A DNA stretch of 25,829 bases from a virus. Under the pieces are notes generated by a model. The model saw only the letters and a list, made by a program, of their open reading frames with translations, was not told the origin of the DNA and searched no databases. Shown here piece after piece: positions 3,867 through 24,985 of this stretch; positions within the stretch are counted from its first letter, which is position 1; each line of letters starts with the position of its first letter. The stretch spans positions 1 to 25,829 of IMG/VR virus record IMGVR_UViG_3300025138_000307. One strand, given 5' to 3'. The translations under genes and the position numbers were made by a program.

Positions 3867-4439
3867 CTATAAGTAATCTCTAAGATCCGGAGACCAATCT
3901 CTCCAATGATTGCCTCGATCCTCCTCGTCGCCTGAGCGGGGGGGTTCTTCTATTTGTAGATCATCATGGCTACCGTCTAGATCATCAATATCCATCTCGT
4001 TTTCCATGTCTTCTAGAATACCATCTTCTACTAATTTTTTGAACATGTTTTCATCCATGGCGAAAGACATCATTATCTGCGAAAGATCCATTTGCTGTTC
4101 TTTCATTTTATCGATTTGTTCTTTCTGCTTCTTCATCAAATCTTCTAGTGATACTTCTGATTGATCGATTTCAGTTTCATAGAGTTTTGATGCTTGCGAA
4201 TCAGGTGTGAGAAAAAGGGCGATCCAATCTTCTGGGATTGCGATTTTTTTCTGATCCGAATATTCTAACCAATTCTGGAGAGTTAAAACTTCTTTACGAA
4301 GACCGCTCCACGGATCACTCAATGAAGTGACTTTCATGAGCATTGGATTCTCTACCATCAACCTACCGTTTTTCTTCCCCACAATTTTAGTGATTACCGA
4401 TTCACCACTTTTTAATTTGAGAATTCTATATGGACTCAT
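3867..4439 (-). CDS. Sm-like (LSM-type) protein with acidic C-terminal tail
   Basis: The first 40 residues (RILKLKSGESVITKIVGKKN, then a strand with MVENPMLMKV) look like the first strands of an Sm/LSM barrel: a Leu-Lys-Ser-Gly-Glu turn followed by the modified-function strand. Similar proteins are a regular neighbour of uvsW and gp55 in marine T4-like phages, where they are usually annotated as Sm-like or hypothetical. From about residue 100 there is a helical Gln/Lys/Met-rich stretch, then a strongly acidic tail (EDMENEMDIDDLDG) ending in a charged segment. Sm proteins bind U-rich or A-rich RNA as rings, so an RNA-binding role is possible but not shown. The ATG overlaps the uvsW start region: the stop of this gene is at 3867 and its start is at 4439, four bases into the preceding uvsW stop (ATGA), with GGAGG 7 bases upstream. 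Confidence 0.6.
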   Translation of the reverse strand: MSPYRILKLKSGESVITKIVGKKNGRLMVENPMLMKVTSLSDPWSGLRKEVLTLQNWLEYSDQKKIAIPEDWIALFLTPDSQASKLYETEIDQSEVSLEDLMKKQKEQIDKMKEQQMDLSQIMMSFAMDENMFKKLVEDGILEDMENEMDIDDLDGSHDDLQIEEPPRSGDEEDRGNHWRDWSPDLRDYL

Positions 4440-5944
4440 ATTGTTTCCTCCAATTGAATTGACAGAGGTTTAAAAGTGAAACCCTCTGACTTATATATCT
4501 TGATTCTCTCTAGAAAATGTCGCAGAGTATGGTTTCTGTATGATTTCCACGAAAGATCGTCTCCTATGTCGTATAGCCTTGCCGTATCTTTGTGTTCTGA
4601 TTTTCTTAATTGACGACCGATGCTTTGTAGAACACGAACTCTGGATTTCGACGGTGAGGCGAATATGATATTGTGGAGCCTGCGAATTGACACTCCAGTG
4701 GAAAACGTTCCATAGGAGGCTATTATTATAGCATCATTTATGGTCTCTGCAACTTTTCTTACTTGTTCTCTGATCTCAACTTCAGTTGCGCCGTAGATGA
4801 AGAATACGTCACGGTCTGGATACTCTTTTTTGATCATGTCATGGAGAACTTTGCCGTGTTTTTCGACAAACTGGAAAAGAATCAGAGTGTTACCTTTTAG
4901 TGTACCTGCCAATTGTTTGATGAATTTATTACGCTTTTCGTTTTTTACCAACCAATCCATTTCTTCTTGGTACTTTAATTTTTTTGCTTCTTTTTTTTCT
5001 TCGTCTGTGTAATTCAAGAGGATCGAATCAATCTTCAGTTTAGATAATAGGTCTTTGTCGATCAAGTCTTTTGTTGATGTTACATTGTAGACCGATCCGA
5101 ACAGACCTTCAATGACGAGTTTGTGCGTGAGTGTACCATCCAGAGTTCCCGTTGTTCCTATACGATAAGGGCAGTTCTGAAGTTTGGTCATTATGCTAGT
5201 TAATGATTTTGATTTGAACAGATGACACTCGTCCCCGAAGACAACTCGAAAGTTTTTGAAGTAATCGGCGGGCATCTTGTATATACTCTGCCATGTAGAA
5301 ATAAAGATCTTTTTATCGTCAGTTTTTGATTTGCCCGAAAAGATCATATGACACTTACTTTCGGCATTCCACTCGACATGTTCCGAGTAGTCTTTGAAGT
5401 CGTTGTACATCTGACTGACCAGTGATGTTGTAGGAACAATGATCAACATTTTCTCATTCTCTTTCAACAGACTTTCGTAATACCTAACCAGGCAATATAT
5501 GATAAGTGACTTTCCTGAGCCAGTAGGGGACAATAGTAAACATCTATTCTTAGAGATAGCATGTTGTATTGCATCCAGTTGGTGATCATGTACTTCAATT
5601 TTTTTGTTGTTGGCGTGTATGTTTAACTCTGTATCGATCCATTTGCGAAGGTGATCTATTGGCACAGATTTGGCATCTGATGTCAGTTCTGGTGAAACCG
5701 AAAAAGAATATTTACGATCTTCACAAAATTTCATAAAATATGGCATTAGTCCCGCATACAAAGTTTGTCCGTAGATGTTATACATCTTGATCGTACCATC
5801 CCATACCTTGTTGCGGTACGATGGCATGAACTTGTGTCCTGGCACTTTGAATGTGAAATAATCGGAGAGTTCTTTTGCGAGACCACGCTCGCACTCGATC
5901 CGTATATCAACGCTATTCACTTCAGTCACATTAAAATCACTCAT
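4436..5944 (-). CDS. uvsW: UvsW helicase (SF2 DNA/RNA-DNA helicase)
   Basis: UvsW unwinds branched DNA and R-loops and helps shift the phage from origin-based to recombination-based replication. The SF2 motifs are clear: Walker A PTGSGKS (140-146), DECH (238-241), GTTGT (263-267), and a motif VI of the form QSIGRQLRKSE near residue 440. The N-terminal 100 residues form the small DNA-binding domain typical of this family, with the aromatic-rich YRNKVWDGTIKMY segment. The 502-residue length matches T4 UvsW (503). There is no Shine-Dalgarno sequence before the ATG, and the start codon lies in one arm of a short hairpin (5942-5956). It sits 16 bases after the deaminase-like gene and overlaps the Sm-like gene by 4 bases. 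Confidence 0.95.
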   Translation of the reverse strand: MSDFNVTEVNSVDIRIECERGLAKELSDYFTFKVPGHKFMPSYRNKVWDGTIKMYNIYGQTLYAGLMPYFMKFCEDRKYSFSVSPELTSDAKSVPIDHLRKWIDTELNIHANNKKIEVHDHQLDAIQHAISKNRCLLLSPTGSGKSLIIYCLVRYYESLLKENEKMLIIVPTTSLVSQMYNDFKDYSEHVEWNAESKCHMIFSGKSKTDDKKIFISTWQSIYKMPADYFKNFRVVFGDECHLFKSKSLTSIMTKLQNCPYRIGTTGTLDGTLTHKLVIEGLFGSVYNVTSTKDLIDKDLLSKLKIDSILLNYTDEEKKEAKKLKYQEEMDWLVKNEKRNKFIKQLAGTLKGNTLILFQFVEKHGKVLHDMIKKEYPDRDVFFIYGATEVEIREQVRKVAETINDAIIIASYGTFSTGVSIRRLHNIIFASPSKSRVRVLQSIGRQLRKSEHKDTARLYDIGDDLSWKSYRNHTLRHFLERIKIYKSEGFTFKPLSIQLEETI

Positions 5945-5960: not shown

Positions 5961-6431
5961 TTATGGGTGAAAGATATCGCCGTTAACTTTGACTTCGATG
6001 TTCTTCTTCGACACCTTCCCATTCCAGCATCGAATTATGATACCGTTTGTCTTTAGAAGTTCTTGCACTTCCAGCATTTTCGGCGTTGACCAATCTTTTC
6101 GCCAAATGTCTGCGTACTCTTTATGGAATGTAAAAGATCTTATACCACATTCTCGGATAGCGATTGCGTCTTCTTGAGTAGGAGGAGCGGGACAATACAT
6201 ATCCATTCCCATACAGGAGACACCTCTGTTCGCGGCTCTGAAAAATAAGTTCTGTATTGCAGAACAGCGATACCAATCTTCGCCTTTTAGGTTTTCGGTT
6301 GCTAAAACGATACCAGATCTGCTGTCAAGGATTAGTGCTGAACATTGTGTATCACTTTTTGAGTGAGCCTGACAGTGTGTATATGCGTGTTTGAAATATA
6401 CGGCATGAAGAATGTTATCACTATACTCCAT
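5961..6431 (-). CDS. Deaminase-fold protein (dCMP deaminase-like) lacking the zinc and catalytic residues
   Basis: The overall frame is that of the deoxycytidylate deaminase family. It has an early segment HSKSDTQCSALILDSRSGI, like the family's S-x-D-x-x-x-x-GA-hydrophobic strand, then RAANRGVSCMGMDMY, like the family's AARxGxxxxGxxMY, then DAIAIRECGI, like AxAIxxxGI. However, the zinc ligand and general base motif HAE is replaced by SAI (residues 57-59) and PCxxC by PTQED (84-88), with spacing kept. A working deaminase is therefore unlikely; a regulatory or nucleotide-binding role is possible. I start it at ATG 6431 (156 residues), which has GGAG 11 bases upstream. A longer GTG reading from 6458 would add 9 residues deep inside uvsY. 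It overlaps the uvsY stop by 11 bases. Confidence is good for the fold and moderate for loss of activity. Confidence 0.6.
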   Translation of the reverse strand: MEYSDNILHAVYFKHAYTHCQAHSKSDTQCSALILDSRSGIVLATENLKGEDWYRCSAIQNLFFRAANRGVSCMGMDMYCPAPPTQEDAIAIRECGIRSFTFHKEYADIWRKDWSTPKMLEVQELLKTNGIIIRCWNGKVSKKNIEVKVNGDIFHP

Positions 6432-6855
6432 TGATAAACTTTCTCCATTCGATGGCACTACGGATATTCCATTGTCGGTTATTCATTATCTTAATTACTG
6501 ACTCTAGGTAAGATACTTTTTCTTTGCAGAAAGAGACTTCCATTCTTAATATAGAAAGATCTTTATCCGAATCAAGGTACTTGTCTATATCCGCTTTTAA
6601 GATGTTCAATTGAAACGGTTCCCATCCGAGTGTAGCAAGAGTTTCGGAATCCATTTTGCCTGTGTAATATTCCCACTTGCTACGAATAAGAGACTTCAAC
6701 TCTTCATCTTTTTGGGTGAGACGAAGCCTTTCATCGTGATACATGTTAAGATACTTGTTATGTAATTGTGGTGTTCGCAAAGACTCTATATCGAGTTCTG
6801 TGTCGTCCATTACCATGTCTTCAGAGACCATGGCACGCAGTTCTGTTAAGTTCAT
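6421..6855 (-). CDS. uvsY: UvsY recombination mediator
   Basis: UvsY loads the UvsX recombinase onto single-stranded DNA covered by gp32. The family signature is visible in RSKWEYYTGKM (about 58-68) and in the C-terminal QWNIRSAIEWRKFINGV, which matches the conserved helix that ends UvsY proteins. The length of 144 residues is close to T4 UvsY (137). The middle is helical and charged, as expected for a protein that forms hexamers. The ATG has a strong ribosome binding site (GGAGGT, 6866-6861) and is preceded by its own sigma70-like promoter, so this gene opens the recombination module that continues into the deaminase-like gene and uvsW. Confidence 0.9.
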   Translation of the reverse strand: MNLTELRAMVSEDMVMDDTELDIESLRTPQLHNKYLNMYHDERLRLTQKDEELKSLIRSKWEYYTGKMDSETLATLGWEPFQLNILKADIDKYLDSDKDLSILRMEVSFCKEKVSYLESVIKIMNNRQWNIRSAIEWRKFINGV

Positions 6856-10052: not shown

Positions 10053-10694
10053 TCAAAGATTTTGGATGAAGTTTTTGAAGACCTCAAGTTTTTCTTCTTC
10101 TAGTTCTTTTCGTGTTGCTTCTTGAATACGTCTTCGGTAGTTTTCAATTTGTCTTTCTTTGAAAATACCATCAGCATAAGTCCATTCTTTTCCTTCCATG
10201 ATACCATCAACAAAGGCATCAGGAGCAGAAGGATCTGCAACGATATCTACGGCAGATAACATAAAGTCTTTCTGGACTTCATTTACTCCACCCACATTTT
10301 TGATTGAACCCATTCCTCGGGAAGAAACGCCTAGTTTTGCTCCGCCGTCGATAAGATTTTGTACAATCTTTCCGTATGGTGTGTCTAGGATTTTAGCCTC
10401 ACCGTATACATCATTACCTTCGTAACGAAGATCGTTGATGATATGAGACACACGTTCCAGATTGACTGTTGGTCCTTCTGGGTGACCCAGTTCGCCTAGT
10501 GCTCTGCTTCCCTTGACATACTTATCAATGTAGCGATTGGTTTCACCGAAAAGAGTATCTCTTCCATATCTTCTGCCATTACGGTTTACTTTTTCTGCTT
10601 GCATGAAGATACCTTTGATGGAATAGTTTTTCTTTCCATCTGTTTCCTCGCAAACAAGTTGGACATCTTCGTTGACTTCAGTGATTAGTAACAT
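10053..10694 (-). CDS. gp21: Prohead maturation protease gp21
   Basis: This serine protease of the herpes-assemblin-like fold cuts gp22, gp23 and the small core proteins after Leu/Ile-x-Glu during head maturation. Catalytic candidates are His71 in ALGELGHP and Ser124 or Ser125 in LGVSSRGMG, the family's most conserved block. The following DFMLSAVDIVADPSAPDAFV (144-163) is also typical. RNGRRYGRDTLF near residues 38-49 matches the N-terminal conserved turn. The 213-residue length agrees with T4 (212). Its ATG overlaps the stop of the preceding gene as TGATG, so it is translated by coupling. Confidence 0.95.
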   Translation of the reverse strand: MLLITEVNEDVQLVCEETDGKKNYSIKGIFMQAEKVNRNGRRYGRDTLFGETNRYIDKYVKGSRALGELGHPEGPTVNLERVSHIINDLRYEGNDVYGEAKILDTPYGKIVQNLIDGGAKLGVSSRGMGSIKNVGGVNEVQKDFMLSAVDIVADPSAPDAFVDGIMEGKEWTYADGIFKERQIENYRRRIQEATRKELEEEKLEVFKNFIQNL

Positions 10695-11479
10695 CAGTTG
10701 CCTTTCCTTGCAGCAATTGCTGCTTTGATTGCTTTGTCTCTTGAACCCATGAATTCCTGAGAACCAGTTTCAATCTTTCCGTCACCGTCGTGATCTTTCT
10801 TGGCTTTTTTACTCTTCTTTTGATTCTTCGCCGCTTGCTTGCGGACATCTTTCAGACTTCCGCCCATGGCTTCGTGAGTTCCGACTAAGGGCATTTCGCT
10901 CATGTCCTCTACGGACTCTCCTACTTTATGTCCCTTGTGCTTCTTGTGAAGAAGGTGATCATGGTCGCCAGCCTTAGAGTCGGATTCAAACTCGTCTCTC
11001 ATCTTGGAAGCAACAGCCTTGCGGGTTGCGACCGAGAATCGAGATCCGTGATCCTTGTGGTAGCGATCAGCGGCATCCTTTGCAGCGTGACCGAAGGCTT
11101 TATGTGCCTTATCACTATCATAGGTTCCAGAGGCTTGCTTGTTGCGAAGGTTCTTATGAATAGGAGTCATACGCTGACGGTGAAGATCGGCATGATTGGT
11201 AGCGTAGAGGTGGAGTTCGCGGGTGTCGGAATCATCACCTTCGCCAATATTCATTCCTTCGAGATCTTCTTCGTATTGGTCATTGTACATCTCTTCGATG
11301 TCATCATCATCCCATACATCATCTTCGCAGGATTCGCAAACATTCCATGTCTCGTCGGTAACGTCCTGAATACGAGACTCGATGAGTTCGTGGACTCTTC
11401 GGTTGAGTTCTTCTTTGAGCATATCGGAAAACTCGGTGAAGTTTCCGTCGATCGCTGCTTCAGTCATCTTCTCGTTCAT
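10694..11479 (-). CDS. Prohead-associated protein in the gp68 position, with EF-hand-like loop
   Basis: It lies between the portal/gp67-like pair and gp21, where T4 has the small core protein gp68, but at 261 residues it is much larger than gp68 (141). I start it at ATG 11479, with AGGAG 9 bases upstream, giving a 20-base overlap with the preceding gene; a 302-codon reading from 11602 only adds antisense-looking residues. The N-terminal 40 residues resemble those of the neighbouring small core protein. Then come a CESC pair, a very acidic stretch (DDVWDDDDIEEMYNDQYEEDLE), a His- and Lys-rich middle, a Lys-rich patch and, near residues 229-237, DHDGDGKIE followed by SRDKAIKAAIAARKG. The D-x-D-G-D-G loop resembles an EF-hand. 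Function is not established. Confidence 0.6.
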   Translation of the reverse strand: MNEKMTEAAIDGNFTEFSDMLKEELNRRVHELIESRIQDVTDETWNVCESCEDDVWDDDDIEEMYNDQYEEDLEGMNIGEGDDSDTRELHLYATNHADLHRQRMTPIHKNLRNKQASGTYDSDKAHKAFGHAAKDAADRYHKDHGSRFSVATRKAVASKMRDEFESDSKAGDHDHLLHKKHKGHKVGESVEDMSEMPLVGTHEAMGGSLKDVRKQAAKNQKKSKKAKKDHDGDGKIETGSQEFMGSRDKAIKAAIAARKGN

Positions 11480-11663
11480 CTTCGTTATCTCCTTCTTCGG
11501 AATCTGTTTGGTTTTGCATGAGAGATGAAGACATAGAAATTTCTGCATCTCTAAGTCTTTCGGAAACTTTAGTGGAGATCGCTCTCTTAAACGAATCTTC
11601 AAAGTCTACAACGTTGCTGTCTACAACAGCCTTGAACATGTCACTGTATTCATTTTCTGGCAT
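11460..11663 (-). CDS. Small acidic prohead core protein (gp67-like)
   Basis: The protein of 67 residues has an amphipathic N-terminal helix and a tail of almost only acidic residues (DSEEGDNEDEREDD). T4 gp67, encoded at this same place after the portal, is 80 residues with the same design, so the assignment rests on position and layout. I start it at ATG 11663, which has GGAG 7 bases upstream and overlaps the portal stop by 14 bases. An ATG pair at 11684 would add 7 residues lying fully inside the portal gene. It then overlaps the next gene by 20 bases. T4 gp67 is a core component needed for correct prohead shape. Confidence 0.65.
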   Translation of the reverse strand: MPENEYSDMFKAVVDSNVVDFEDSFKRAISTKVSERLRDAEISMSSSLMQNQTDSEEGDNEDEREDD

Positions 11664-13194
11664 TAGGATCTCCAAATTCATCATCTACGGGAGGATCTTC
11701 CTCCCTTTCTTTATCTATCTGTTTCTTCATTTCGTCAGTCTCTTCTTCCGTCAAACGAAGGATTTTCTTGTACACATATTCCTTCGAGAAGTATTGACCG
11801 ATGAATTCGCCCACATCTCGCATCATTTCGATACGCTCTTTCATAATTTCTGTTTCTTTGAGTTCACTAAAGTAGTTGTCACGGTTGTAGTCGAAGAGTA
11901 TATCCTGAGTGATATCTTCAAACTCTTCTTTGCTCATGACACCCTTGACTACAAGTTGTGTTTTCAAAAGATTAATAAAAAGATCATTGAACTTAGTTCG
12001 AAGTCGTTCTACAAACTTGTAAAACTTCACTTCGTCTCTGGAGATCTCGGCAGATCTACCCATGTTGAAGCCATTATCTGCTTCCATACGGGAGGTGGGA
12101 ACATGAAGAGCCTGATATAGTCTCTTCTTGAAGTATTCTACATCTTCCATCTCGCCCAGATTCTGACCACCGTCAAGGGTGGTGATCTCGGTTCCTCTGC
12201 CACCTTCACGGCGAGGCATCCAATAGTCTTCAAGCATAGACATATGCTTACGGTCGTCACGCATCTCACCACTACTTGCATCGTAAACTAACTTATTACG
12301 ATAACGATTCATAATATCTCGGAGATATTGTTCGGCTTTATTCTTCGGAAGATTACCGACATCCACATAGAAGACACGACGCTCGGGAGCACGGGAGATT
12401 CGATAGATGACAACGGCGTCTTCAATCATACGAAGTTGATTCAGCGGTTTGATTGCCTTCTGGAGATATCCGAAAACTCTTCTTCGTGTGGAATCATATA
12501 GACCAGAATTGATGTAACAGATTGCATCGGGGAGGATTTTCAGTCCAGTGTCCATTCCTCCTGCATTTGCCTGCTGTCCTGCTGTATTTGTTCCCGTTTG
12601 TCTCTCGTTGTAGATGTAAAATTCTTCCGTGTCTCCGTATAGAGTAACGGGCATAGAACTGTTATCTTGTATCGGCTTCTTTTTTACGCTCTTTACCTTT
12701 CGGATCTTAGTCGGATCGATAGGTCGTATCTCAACGATCCCCTTTTTGGGCGACTTAGGATCCAAAATCATATGGTAATAAAGCCGACTCTCGGTATACC
12801 ACTTACGGAAAATTTCATGACCACGAGAACGAAAACGAAGAAGTTTGAGAACTCCATCGAATTCTTCCTGTACTCTCTTTTTAATGTTTGTCGATAATGA
12901 AGTTTTGTCTAGATTGAGACTGATAGCAACTCGCTCATCATCAAACACTAAAGAGTCATTACAAATATCATCGATGGCCATTTCTACCTCGGGGTGAAGG
13001 GCCATATCTCGATACTTGTAGATTAGATCAATATCGTTCTTGACATACGGATCAAAATCAAGGTAGGAGCCGTAAAAGCCCCCACCTTGAACGATTGATG
13101 CGCCATCTTCTGTGTCAGGTGGTACGAATGATACTACCTTGTCAGAGTCAGATTTTGCTTTCTCGATATTGTAACCAAACAAGTTAATCGGCAT
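11650..13194 (-). CDS. gp20: Portal vertex protein gp20
   Basis: The dodecameric portal forms the DNA entry gate, nucleates prohead assembly and docks the terminase and neck. The 514-residue protein (T4: 524) has the well-known gp20 blocks: RPIDPTKIRKV (about 179-189), ISRAPERRVFYVDVGNLPK near 273-291, the clip/stem stretch with YWMPRREGGRGTEITTLDGG, and YFKKRLYQALHVPTSRM. The last block holds the region widely used as a marker for marine T4-like phages. Upstream is the tube protein with an 18-base gap; the ribosome binding site is weak (GAAAGTGA). The last residues overlap the small core gene. Confidence 0.97.
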   Translation of the reverse strand: MPINLFGYNIEKAKSDSDKVVSFVPPDTEDGASIVQGGGFYGSYLDFDPYVKNDIDLIYKYRDMALHPEVEMAIDDICNDSLVFDDERVAISLNLDKTSLSTNIKKRVQEEFDGVLKLLRFRSRGHEIFRKWYTESRLYYHMILDPKSPKKGIVEIRPIDPTKIRKVKSVKKKPIQDNSSMPVTLYGDTEEFYIYNERQTGTNTAGQQANAGGMDTGLKILPDAICYINSGLYDSTRRRVFGYLQKAIKPLNQLRMIEDAVVIYRISRAPERRVFYVDVGNLPKNKAEQYLRDIMNRYRNKLVYDASSGEMRDDRKHMSMLEDYWMPRREGGRGTEITTLDGGQNLGEMEDVEYFKKRLYQALHVPTSRMEADNGFNMGRSAEISRDEVKFYKFVERLRTKFNDLFINLLKTQLVVKGVMSKEEFEDITQDILFDYNRDNYFSELKETEIMKERIEMMRDVGEFIGQYFSKEYVYKKILRLTEEETDEMKKQIDKEREEDPPVDDEFGDPNARK

Positions 13195-20593: not shown

Positions 20594-20848
20594 TCAACTC
20601 TCGCTGTTTAAATAGGCTTTTAGATAGATTAAATCACTTGCTCTAGTCAAATACCTATTACCGTCATCCCAGTTCAACGGAAAGGTTTTTTTTAATCTGC
20701 CGTTAGTTGAACAGTTTTTCTTGTCGGGTTGATATATTCTCGTCCAACCTTCTTCTGGTTCATAATTTGGTTCCACAGCAAGAAAGAGTTCTAAGTCGAA
20801 CTCTTTCCCGTTTATATTTACTTTGTTTTCTCTCTGTACGAATTTCAT
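20594..20848 (-). CDS. Small protein of unknown function (84 residues)
   Basis: I do not recognise a family. The protein is soluble-looking, with mixed charge and a hydrophobic centre (FDLELFLAVEPNYEPEEGW) and several aromatic residues (RIYQPDKKNC, YLTRASDLIYLKAYL). There is no signal peptide or membrane segment, and no zinc pair. It starts at ATG 20848 in a TAATG overlap with the LamG protein stop, so it is translated by coupling, and it precedes gp13. Its place, between adsorption proteins and neck, suggests a tail or neck accessory, but nothing in the sequence shows it. Coding is supported by the tight overlap and intact frame. Confidence 0.7.
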   Translation of the reverse strand: MKFVQRENKVNINGKEFDLELFLAVEPNYEPEEGWTRIYQPDKKNCSTNGRLKKTFPLNWDDGNRYLTRASDLIYLKAYLNSES

Positions 20849-23064
20849 TATGATCCATCACCATAACCACTACCTGGCGTTCTGGATGGTAGTGCATATC
20901 CAATGTTGATTGTAGAGAATGGTGCGGTTTGGATATTTTTCAGAACTGATGATTTACCTTCAATTTTAAGATCCTCAATGCTGGTCTTGCTTTGGATTTC
21001 ATCGATTGCTGCGTATCTACCTTGATTTTTCAGGTTTCTATAAATGGTAATATCGGTCAAGAAATCATCCAACTCGTAACCGTAAACTCCAAAAGAAATT
21101 CCTTGACTGTCGAGGAAATAATATAATGATCCAGAAACTCCACCACATAATCCCACCAGTCTTTCGTATTCGATTACCCGATTTGCATTAGTCTCTGTGG
21201 CATAGAAAGTGAGACTATCTTTTGCCGCACCAAAACAACCACCACCCTGAGTGAATAGATTAGCGAAGTCGCCGAATGCACCAGAGTCTCCCGACATTGC
21301 AGTAGAGTATAATCCACGGATCGTACCAATACTCTGTTCTTCTTCGAGAATATTTTTATATGACCCGATACTTATTCCTACGTTGGTGATACCAATTACC
21401 GCATCTAGTAACGGATACACTGCCTGACTGTTTCCTGTAACACCTGCGGTGCCACCTGTATTTCCTAAATCTTGTCCTTTAATGTAACCCTTAACTGGAT
21501 TAAATCCTGTTGCGGATCCCGTGTATCCGTAGTTCGCAATGAGCAGGATTCTTCGGTCTGGATCGTAACTTTGGACCATTGCATCAGATATATTAAGTCC
21601 ATTTTCCACAAAGCGTTTACAATCATGAATACCATCACCCTTCACCAAAAGTTTAGTGTTTACGGATCCAGTGCTACCTGTTGTTGGTAGATCAATAGTG
21701 ATACCAGTGGCGAGTGTTAAGCCTGCACCTGTTGTCCCTAGCGGATCTAGATTTGTAGCAAGAATTGCAGTTGATCCCGCCTCAGATGCTTTAGCAAAAA
21801 TTAAGTTCACTTCATCGATATAACCCTTGACAGGACTAGTTCCGTCATTCTCTGCTCCGATAACGAAAGGTGCTGTGTCATCTTGGAAGATTTCTTCGGT
21901 GTTCCCTAATGCTTCAGTGTCATACAAATGACCATCAACATAAATTCTTCCTTCTACGTCGCCTATATCTACCTGAACATGATGCCACTGATTTATTGCC
22001 ACTGACGGAATGGATGCTGATAGTACTCGGTTGAAATCGGCTCCAGATGCATTGGTCGAGAATGAAAAAACGTATGACTTGGGACTAGTTTCATATTTTA
22101 AGAAGTATGCACCATTAGGTCCAGATTTGTCTCGTTTACCAACTATAAGTGTGTCTGCTGACGGTGCTGCACTATCGTGACGGATCCATGCGGATAGTCT
22201 ACAATAATACTTCGAACTGTTGTCAAACGTGAACCCCGTATCACTATTGATGTATAAAAATGGTCCTGTAGACCCACTACCTGATCCAGGCAAACGAATC
22301 GAGGCAGATCCATTTCCTGATCTACGCACAGCCGAGTGTGTTACCTCTCCCGTATTGATTGGTTTGTAGACACTTTGTTCTACATTCTCCCCGAACTGAT
22401 AGACACCACAACCATCAACGTCGGCACTGAGTCCAAAAGTGACTCCGTCAACTGACTGAAGACGAATCATATGGAAACCGTTACCAGTTGTTATTCCAGA
22501 AGATAGATTAAACCCTGAAGATATGTCCGAAGTTAATCCACTTTTCTTTAGAGCATGTATTCCCGTAGGTGTAAATCCTCTAACTTGATAGATTCCATCA
22601 AGAGTATCATATGATGTATTTAAAATCTGAAAGTGATCACCGGGAAGAAGTTTTAATTCGTCTAGGCTTTGTTTGTTGTCGAAAATATACCGAGTATATC
22701 CTCCAATAGTCGGCCGATATCCTCCGCTCAAATTTGTTGCGTAAGAGTGCTGACCACCGAGAATAAGTTTACCGATAGCAACCGATGATGAAGGTAATCT
22801 CTGTTGCGAAGTGTATCTACTGGGACCAGAAAGTGGGATATTATGAGAATCATTCTTTTCTGTTTTTACATTTTCAGGAAGAGATACCTTATTCACCACG
22901 GTATTTTCGTCTACTGAATTAGTAAGTTTGACACCGGCGGGAATAACGCTGATTGTTTCATCTGTACCGATATCGATAAGAATATTGTCATCACTATAAG
23001 GTAAAACCTTAGTGACTGTTCCGTCTACTTTATTATATACAACGATTCTTTTCTGTTCAGACAT
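20848..23064 (-). CDS. Virion protein with LamG-like domain (putative adhesin or fibre)
   Basis: This protein of 738 residues has an N-terminal beta-rich part. Then, at about 245-425, it shows a LamG/concanavalin-type jelly roll: SASIRLPGSG, YYCRLSAWIRHDSA, INQWHHVQVDIGDVEGRIYV and DGHLYDTEALG, followed by APFVIGAENDG and KGYIDEVNLIFAKAS. The W-x-H-V-x-V plus Y-V-D-G pattern is the family core. The rest is Gly/Ser/Thr-rich (GTTGAGLTLATG, GNTGGTAGVTGN), with an ending PGSGYGDGS. In other phages such domains bind host surface carbohydrates. T4 carries fibritin and gp12 at this place before gp13, so a whisker- or fibre-like role is plausible, not proven. The start at 23064 has GAGGAG overlapping the previous stop. 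Confidence 0.72.
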   Translation of the reverse strand: MSEQKRIVVYNKVDGTVTKVLPYSDDNILIDIGTDETISVIPAGVKLTNSVDENTVVNKVSLPENVKTEKNDSHNIPLSGPSRYTSQQRLPSSSVAIGKLILGGQHSYATNLSGGYRPTIGGYTRYIFDNKQSLDELKLLPGDHFQILNTSYDTLDGIYQVRGFTPTGIHALKKSGLTSDISSGFNLSSGITTGNGFHMIRLQSVDGVTFGLSADVDGCGVYQFGENVEQSVYKPINTGEVTHSAVRRSGNGSASIRLPGSGSGSTGPFLYINSDTGFTFDNSSKYYCRLSAWIRHDSAAPSADTLIVGKRDKSGPNGAYFLKYETSPKSYVFSFSTNASGADFNRVLSASIPSVAINQWHHVQVDIGDVEGRIYVDGHLYDTEALGNTEEIFQDDTAPFVIGAENDGTSPVKGYIDEVNLIFAKASEAGSTAILATNLDPLGTTGAGLTLATGITIDLPTTGSTGSVNTKLLVKGDGIHDCKRFVENGLNISDAMVQSYDPDRRILLIANYGYTGSATGFNPVKGYIKGQDLGNTGGTAGVTGNSQAVYPLLDAVIGITNVGISIGSYKNILEEEQSIGTIRGLYSTAMSGDSGAFGDFANLFTQGGGCFGAAKDSLTFYATETNANRVIEYERLVGLCGGVSGSLYYFLDSQGISFGVYGYELDDFLTDITIYRNLKNQGRYAAIDEIQSKTSIEDLKIEGKSSVLKNIQTAPFSTINIGYALPSRTPGSGYGDGS

Positions 23065-23071
23065 TTAAGGT

Positions 23072-24985
23072 TTACTCCTCTATTCCACCCACTTCTATAT
23101 ATCCCTCAAGAAGACCGGTCTTCGATCGAGGGCGTGATCCCAAGTTTGATCCAGCGACTCGGCATACCGAATTGTAAGTACAATTTATACTATCACCTTC
23201 GGTGGAAGCATTTTCGGTTACCGTGATTGTGTCACTGATAAAGTTGGAACTATAGAGAGCCTGAATAGCGTTTTTAGCATAATTTGATACTGTGATATCG
23301 TGAGCGTTGATCGTGGAGTTTGCCGCAACAGTAATAGCATCTCCGCATATACCCGCAGCAGTTTCGAATCCTGAATATTCAAACGTAGAAAAATATGTTC
23401 TACCAAAAGATGCGTCACTAACATATACACCAGACGCATCGGCGCTTGAGTAGAAAAATGGTCCAACGACCCCACTTGAAGTTTCTGATAAACTTACTGC
23501 TCTATTTACATTGTCTAAACTATCCGAAGAAGAAATATTCAGGGATGATCCCTTATCTCCAAGATAACCAAAACCGTTTCTGAAAGACATACAACCAGTG
23601 AATTCTCCGTTAGAATTCAGTCTGCACGCAAACCCCGCTCCTCCTTCAGAAAGTTCGTTGAAGTTTCTTCCTGCGTTTTGTAAATTGAAGCATGAAACGC
23701 ATCTGGTTGCTATGATGCTACTATTTCTTGATGCGATTACACCGTGTTGGCCGTTGCCTGTTGAAATGCAACTGCTCAAGGTTAAAGAAGAATGGTTGTT
23801 TGCAACAAACCCATCATTCCAGCAACCACTCACAATCAATCCGTTTAGAGTTGCGGTTGATGAATTGTTGACAAGAATTCCAGTTCCGCAAGAAACAACA
23901 GACTGGAATTGATTTTCTGATGAATCGTTCTGAATGAGATTCGATCGTTGCCTGATTTCAATTCCAATATTAAAATTGGAAACTGCAACGCCAGGATGAA
24001 GAACTAAAGTTGATCCGTTCTCTACTACAACACCAGAAGATTTAGACTTTCCACCAATACTAGTGATAGGATCGGATGTAACAATAGCCACATCTTGTAA
24101 GTTCAGTCCCGATTGGTTTGTTACTCTGATGCCGTCAAGTGAAGGACTGGTTAGATTAATCACGGAAGAAAGATATCGAACAGGAACATTGGTGTCTGAT
24201 CCTGCATATACTGGTGTCCCTACGGGATTAGACAGAGTGTGCATTCTGCTCGTTACACTGTTCGAGATTCCGTCATAAACATTTATGTTTCTGATAGGAT
24301 TTACTAATACTGGATTCTTTCCAAAGTCTGCTGCATTGGTTTTGATACGAAACGCACCATAAGTAAAAAATCTACTCATGGTTGTTCCTGTTTCAATGTA
24401 TCTTTTTACCTCTGTGTTGTCCGCAAGATTTCCGTTACCGAGGGATGCGGAGTTATGATTCATTTGAATCTCACCACCACTGAAAGGAGACACACACACA
24501 AATTTTCCAATAGATGCATTTGTTTGAGGAATATTGGTAGCACCTATAGAACTCAATACCATGTCAAACCTAGAGGATGTGGTAGGAATAGTATCTGTGT
24601 TATAGTCTCTTATTACTGTTCCGTACTGTTTGTTTCCTACCTTACCTTTATACGATGTCGTATCAAGATAATTGCTAACTGAAGTGACAGAACCAACTAC
24701 TTGTGCGCCACCTTTAAGGGTAATCCTTATCCCATCTGGGTGATCCATCACGAGCGTAGATGAAACATTATAGTTTCCGTCTGCTAAACTGATAGTAACA
24801 GAAGCGTTTTCGGGGATATGGTACGAACTAAGAAAATCAAAAGCCTTTTTAATCGTTCGGAAAGGTTTAGTTGAACTTAGTCCATTATTATTATCACTGC
24901 CCGTAGTTGAGACATACAGAAATGTTTTTCCTGATATCTCTTTGTACGAACCCGTTCTGGTTTTTGATACGATTGCACTACCCAT
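23072..24985 (-). CDS. Right-handed beta-helix virion protein (pectate lyase-like fold)
   Basis: After a short head-binding-like N-terminus comes FLYVSTTGSDNNNGLSSTKP, then FRTIKKAFDFLSS and VTISLADGNYNVSSTLVMDH. This is the standard entry of phage and bacterial pectate-lyase-like helices (GxDxNxGxxxxPFxTIxxA). The following about 450 residues show repeated short strands with Asn, Ser and Gly turns, such as GSTLVLHPGVAVSNFNIGI, SSATLNGLIVSGCWNDGFV and HSSLTLSSCISTGNGQHGV, as expected for coils of a parallel beta helix. Tailspikes with this fold bind or cut surface polysaccharide; I see no clear catalytic acid pair. The ending LLEGYIEVGGIEE is acidic. ATG 24985 has AGGA 8 bases upstream, 18 bases after the previous gene. 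Confidence 0.72.
   Translation of the reverse strand: MGSAIVSKTRTGSYKEISGKTFLYVSTTGSDNNNGLSSTKPFRTIKKAFDFLSSYHIPENASVTISLADGNYNVSSTLVMDHPDGIRITLKGGAQVVGSVTSVSNYLDTTSYKGKVGNKQYGTVIRDYNTDTIPTTSSRFDMVLSSIGATNIPQTNASIGKFVCVSPFSGGEIQMNHNSASLGNGNLADNTEVKRYIETGTTMSRFFTYGAFRIKTNAADFGKNPVLVNPIRNINVYDGISNSVTSRMHTLSNPVGTPVYAGSDTNVPVRYLSSVINLTSPSLDGIRVTNQSGLNLQDVAIVTSDPITSIGGKSKSSGVVVENGSTLVLHPGVAVSNFNIGIEIRQRSNLIQNDSSENQFQSVVSCGTGILVNNSSTATLNGLIVSGCWNDGFVANNHSSLTLSSCISTGNGQHGVIASRNSSIIATRCVSCFNLQNAGRNFNELSEGGAGFACRLNSNGEFTGCMSFRNGFGYLGDKGSSLNISSSDSLDNVNRAVSLSETSSGVVGPFFYSSADASGVYVSDASFGRTYFSTFEYSGFETAAGICGDAITVAANSTINAHDITVSNYAKNAIQALYSSNFISDTITVTENASTEGDSINCTYNSVCRVAGSNLGSRPRSKTGLLEGYIEVGGIEE

Follow-up and report, generated by a model that had tools for sequence, protein, structure and literature searches.

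The locus under study lies on a 25.8-kb virus fragment (IMG/VR record IMGVR_UViG_3300025138_000307), the whole of which, 25,829 nucleotides, is referred to here as the window. Three genes are packed on its minus strand: uvsY, uvsW and, between them, a gene of unfamiliar sequence (Table 1). An earlier note on this DNA had placed a deaminase-related open reading frame between uvsY and uvsW, and this reading is confirmed, with the strand being minus. The start of the gene overlaps the 3′ end of uvsY, a possible sign of translational coupling, while its stop codon is separated from the start of uvsW by a gap of 16 nt. In a scan of the region for promoters and terminators, promoter-like sites did not rise above the level of shuffled sequence.

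Table 1. Features of the uvsY-uvsW locus in the window
Feature	Position	Strand	Details and basis
uvsW, DNA helicase	4436..5944	minus	phrog_16, E 1.1e-99
Putative deaminase-derived pseudoenzyme gene	5961..6431	minus	156 aa + stop; ORF reading (ATG at 6431, stop at 5961), fold, homology to slot deaminases
Former [P]C-x-x-C, now P-T-Q-E-D	6168..6182	minus	codons 84-88; [ST]85-x-x-D88 in all rows
Former H-A-E, now S-A-I	6255..6263	minus	codons 57-59; S/T57 and I/V/T59 in all rows
Trp53	6273..6275	minus	codon 53; just before the former active-site helix
Overlap, uvsY 3′ end and pseudoenzyme start	6421..6431	minus	11 nt, from sequence
uvsY, recombination mediator	6421..6855	minus	phrog_231, E 1.1e-39

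Several other genes of the window deserve mention. The gene that follows uvsW (3867-4439, minus strand) encodes a 190-aa protein with a weak match to phrog_471, labeled "methylamine utilization" (E 2e-8). The same label is attached to a gene adjoining uvsW in Pelagibacter phage Mosig, and it looks doubtful for a phage gene at such a position. Two overlapping frames are found at 10694-11684 (minus strand), one spanning 10694-11602 with a TTG start and the other spanning 11460-11684 with an ATG start; the true start of the longer frame may be an internal ATG. At 20848-24985 (minus strand), the window encodes two large putative structural proteins (738 and 637 aa), possibly LamG-like and beta-helix-like as judged by eye.

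The protein encoded between uvsY and uvsW carries S57-A58-I59 where dCMP deaminases have their HAE motif and P84-T85-Q86-E87-D88 in place of PCxxC, exactly as the earlier note had read from the sequence. Proteins that share these losses are referred to below as degenerate, and the position between uvsY and uvsW as the slot. The window protein has no match in Pfam or PHROGs, and NCBIfam also returned nothing useful; neither it nor four of its homologs contains PF00383 above the Pfam gathering cut-off. A tblastn search of annotated phages at 1e-5 gave no match. In a phmmer search of the PDB, T4 dCMP deaminase comes first, but its E-value of 0.3 is not significant, so that the case for descent from a deaminase rests on intermediate sequences and on the fold. 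With BLASTP, the window protein matches L021, an intact deaminase of the same slot, with an E-value of 1e-20. A profile-profile comparison of the degenerate and intact slot sets, spanning 153 columns, gives an E-value of 2e-31 and a probability of 99.9%. Together these two results exclude a chance resemblance to deaminases.

Structure prediction leads to the same family. An AlphaFold (AF2) model built from degenerate sequences only has a pLDDT of 74 and a pTM of 0.75; adding intact relatives raises these values to 93 and 0.88 with the same best matches, in a model that is less independent because its alignment includes intact deaminases. The best Foldseek match of the models is human dCMP deaminase (E 6e-9 to 8e-9). 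In VIA, the degenerate-only model scores Z 16.0 against 7fh4 and 14.0 against T4 1vq2, with Z 15-16 against the PBCV-1 and cyanophage dCMP deaminases. Thus the models, for which the earlier note had allowed that a different fold might emerge, have dCMP deaminases as their best matches, and the cytidine-deaminase fold is predicted to be kept. The window protein and the active dCMP deaminases (PF00383; T4 cd/1vq2, S-TIM5 4p9c, human DCTD 2w4l and PBCV-1 7fh4) have the same fold and order of elements; it differs from them in lacking any zinc ligand, the catalytic Glu, the N-x-x-P/G(Y/W)N(A/G) loop and a Pfam or PHROG match.

A profile scan of IMG/VR recovered 15 contigs of the degenerate clade, all of them without the ligands, with proteins 39-78% identical to the window protein and 33 invariant columns. 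PF00383 was not matched in any of the clade contigs searched. Wherever a contig includes the flanks, the degenerate gene sits in the slot, and both this position and the overlap with uvsY are maintained across the clade. A recent frameshift or sequencing defect was considered and is excluded, the ligand loss being common to the 15 contigs. A scan of GTDB genomes with the degenerate-clade profile gave no match and hence no hint of a host.

In other T4-like phages, the slot is occupied by intact deaminases with E-H-A-E and C-x-x-C motifs. Those scanned match PF00383 with E-values from 9e-13 to 2e-18 and form two sequence groups, labeled marine and freshwater, which are labels for sequence groups and not checked habitats. 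A wider scan found HAE and CxxC kept in 78 of 79 loci, the exception ending at the contig edge after HAE; at most of the 79, uvsY and uvsW adjoin the gene. The slot deaminases, matching PF00383 and the dCMP deaminase family phrog_174, share direct common ancestry with the window protein. L021, L017 and L049, for example, have the same position and tight packing against uvsY as the window gene but keep HAE and CxxC, which it does not. A C-terminal W-x-G ... G-x-x-F-x-P tail is found both in the marine-group slot deaminases and in the window protein. The earlier note had argued that intact homologs at this locus would point to a defect that is recent and confined to this one sequence. Such homologs do exist; however, the loss is old and common to the whole clade, so they do not imply a recent local defect.

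The content of the slot varies among T4-like phages: it may hold an intact deaminase, a degenerate deaminase, a 2OG-Fe(II) oxygenase (as in Pelagibacter phage Mosig) or nothing. Relatives of the slot deaminases with 38-48% identity and the active motif kept also occur at six loci where uvsY and uvsW are not adjacent (L238, L241, L250, L252, L254 and L259). One slot deaminase stands apart, L020:4425-4904 (= L261) on contig IMGVR_UViG_3300005613_003096. This long-branched protein, found on a single contig, has EHSE and C-L-P-D-C, in which the first Cys is displaced by one position; a large part of the region containing the N-x-x-P loop is lost as well. Its zinc site may have been partly lost in an independent event. 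It was rejected as an intermediate between the intact and degenerate states, since its long branch lies beside L019 and outside the degenerate clade; at most it is a separate case.

In a tree of the proteins, all degenerate members group together as a single clade (support 100/100) nested among the intact slot deaminases, although their exact sister is not resolved there. The phages that carry them also form one clade in a tree of uvsW and uvsY (100/99). The stem of the degenerate clade measures 1.45 changes per site in the deaminase tree vs 0.25 in the uvsW and uvsY tree. The simplest reading of these trees would be one loss, with rapid change along the stem and vertical descent from then on.

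What has happened since the loss can be followed from substitution rates. No degenerate copy contains an internal stop. Among unsaturated degenerate pairs of appreciable divergence (dS 0.16-1.6), dN/dS is 0.09-0.29; the pair L010/L173, which differs at 2% of amino acids, was left out for having too few changes. The median ratio of dN in the gene to dN in uvsW is 2.5 in the degenerate clade vs 1.8 in the intact slot deaminases. These values are pairwise Nei-Gojobori estimates from pairs that are not independent, and serve as a comparison and not as a formal codon-model test. They suggest that constraint on the degenerate proteins is close to that on the intact slot enzymes and that purifying selection has held the degenerate protein since the loss. 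The gene does evolve faster than uvsY and uvsW, as would be expected of a decaying passenger, a dead gene whose deletion is merely pending. Yet the absence of stops, the low dN/dS, the invariant columns and a constraint near that of the intact enzymes all speak against decay, which is thus barely credible. The earlier note's proposal of a pseudoenzyme that has kept its fold is borne out by the structure models, the clade-wide loss, the tree and this signature of purifying selection, a measure that the note had itself put forward. The window protein is therefore almost certainly a maintained pseudoenzyme descended from an active-type dCMP deaminase of the uvsY-uvsW slot in T4-like phages.

In the deaminase fold, the zinc ligands are a His at the N-terminus of helix a2 and a pair of Cys at the N-terminus of helix a3. 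Across the degenerate clade, the His and the CxxC ligands are gone, and every aligned row has [ST]57, [ST]85 and D88 at these positions. Position 59, formerly the catalytic Glu, is Ile in seven aligned rows, Thr in three and Val in one. Two further residues distinguish the clade: Trp53 is invariant within it and never found in the aligned intact slot deaminases, and P84 is a newly invariant residue, the intact slot neighbors having [SAC]CxxC and not PCxxC. The earlier note had described the spacing of the deaminase family as preserved almost without gaps. This holds through the core but not upstream of the HAE position, where about 15 residues present in the slot relatives, including the N-x-x-P loop, are deleted.

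The residues that replaced the ligands suggest how the fold could do without zinc. With intact relatives in the model, helices are predicted at 58-68 (a2) and 86-94 (a3), so that positions 57 and 85 are N-caps. S/T-x-x-D/E is the textbook helix capping box, and [ST]85-x-x-D88 is the sole such box conserved across all rows. The chance of at least two of the three ligand columns being all Ser or Thr is 0.0024. From this conservation and the predicted secondary structure, we infer that helix caps at [ST]57 (a2) and [ST]85-x-x-D88 (a3) replaced zinc, and we read the degenerate fold as probably zinc-independent with a closed pocket. The same conserved residues could in principle be understood otherwise: S/T57, S/T85 and D88, together with the conserved His9, His19 and His103, could form a site for another metal or for phosphate, and the protein might still be an enzyme with a rebuilt site, using another metal or none. 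However, the catalytic Glu has become Ile, Val or Thr, the substrate and effector loop is deleted, and helix caps account more simply for the conserved Ser/Thr and Asp, which leaves a rebuilt site highly improbable. A catalytic role of any kind is very unlikely.

The history proposed for the pseudoenzyme begins with a dCMP deaminase of active type that occupied the slot. Sequence and tree indicate that its three zinc ligands disappeared in a single ancestral loss, along with the catalytic Glu and the N-x-x-P loop. The zinc staple that held the N-termini of a2 and a3 would have been swapped for helix caps, yielding a protein that, by its conservation and predicted secondary structure, would bind no zinc and be unable to deaminate. 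The allosteric site of dCMP deaminases, where the nucleotide effector binds at the protomer interface, is marked by a G(Y/W)N(A/G) motif (PMC12088426). The corresponding loop, which reads N-x-x-P in the slot relatives, is absent from the pseudoenzyme, and the usual nucleotide binding has probably been lost with it. Deletion of the effector loop and the change of the catalytic Glu to Ile, Val or Thr thus count against the nucleotide sensor suggested by the earlier note, a role that is disfavored. A non-catalytic role in protein interaction is the more probable one. In this role, the pseudoenzyme would serve as a scaffold or pseudo-subunit that makes protein-protein contacts; candidate partners are further copies of itself, a deaminase of host or phage, and the co-translated UvsY and UvsW.

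A specific form of this explanation, in line with the partner subunit suggested by the earlier note, is a mixed oligomer in which the pseudoenzyme tunes an active host or phage dCMP deaminase. dCMP deaminases are oligomers, and the superfamily offers precedents. In ADAT3/Tad3, the partner subunit of ADAT2, the catalytic Glu is likewise replaced by a hydrophobic residue, Val in ADAT3 and mostly Ile in the phage proteins. ADAT3 nevertheless retains its zinc ligands (His216, Cys254 and Cys257 in yeast; PMC7713142), of which none is left in the window protein; ADAT3 is also a known partner subunit. The N-terminal domain of human CDADC1 is inactive, lacks the allosteric site and is described as contributing structurally to the oligomer (PMC12088426). 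Like the window protein, it derives from a dCMP deaminase-like protein, but it is fused to an active domain whereas the phage protein is free-standing. The A-A-x-R-G stretch that closes helix a2 is retained from the marine-group intact slot enzymes, which also favors the mixed oligomer. Against a mixed oligomer, no second PF00383 deaminase was found in the degenerate-clade contigs searched, all of them fragments (the longest only 68.8 kb), and the slot-intact records searched carry one deaminase each, that in the slot. The clade contigs being incomplete, a partner may be encoded elsewhere, and we regard the mixed oligomer as somewhat unlikely in this specific form. A search of five degenerate-clade contigs, also fragments, found neither ThyX nor ThyA; one slot-intact record encodes ThyX some 33 kb away from the slot.

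Two other roles draw on the neighborhood and on phage defense. The old deaminase surface could have been recruited as an adaptor, making the protein a recombination or replication accessory of the co-translated UvsY and UvsW, and the conservation of the slot and of the uvsY overlap in the degenerate clade fits such a role. The slot, however, predates the loss and in other phages holds active-type deaminases, a 2OG-Fe(II) oxygenase or nothing; being ancestral and variable in content, it says little by position alone, and proximity to uvsY and uvsW does not by itself show a role in recombination. An accessory of this kind, also among the roles suggested by the earlier note, is unlikely. Alternatively, the protein could be a decoy or inhibitor of host defense deaminases that deplete nucleotides. 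Inhibitors often arise as catalytically dead copies of their target, and the intact slot proteins match the deaminase domain of the anti-phage dCTP deaminase model NF041025 with E-values of about 1e-11 to 1e-14, well below the curated cut-off of that model. These matches reflect a common superfamily, and no link to a defense system was seen, which makes a decoy quite improbable. Taken more broadly, recruitment of a free-standing, zinc-free deaminase fold, with helix caps in the stabilizing role of the metal, as a non-enzymatic part of the T4-type recombination and replication machinery or as a dominant deaminase inhibitor, is a tentative proposal whose odds are below even.

The deaminase superfamily already includes known pseudoenzymes. 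The family libraries used contain no free-standing example that lacks every ligand while having active-type relatives at its own locus, and a limited search of the open-access literature found no paper on such a phage deaminase pseudoenzyme. For uncultured T4-like phages it adds a new protein family, missing from Pfam and PHROGs. A single locus here presents a natural series of no gene, an active-type deaminase and a disarmed descendant under selection, so that both the origin of a pseudoenzyme and the replacement of a structural zinc can be tested directly. If true, the recruited zinc-free fold would represent a class of protein that has yet to be described in phages.
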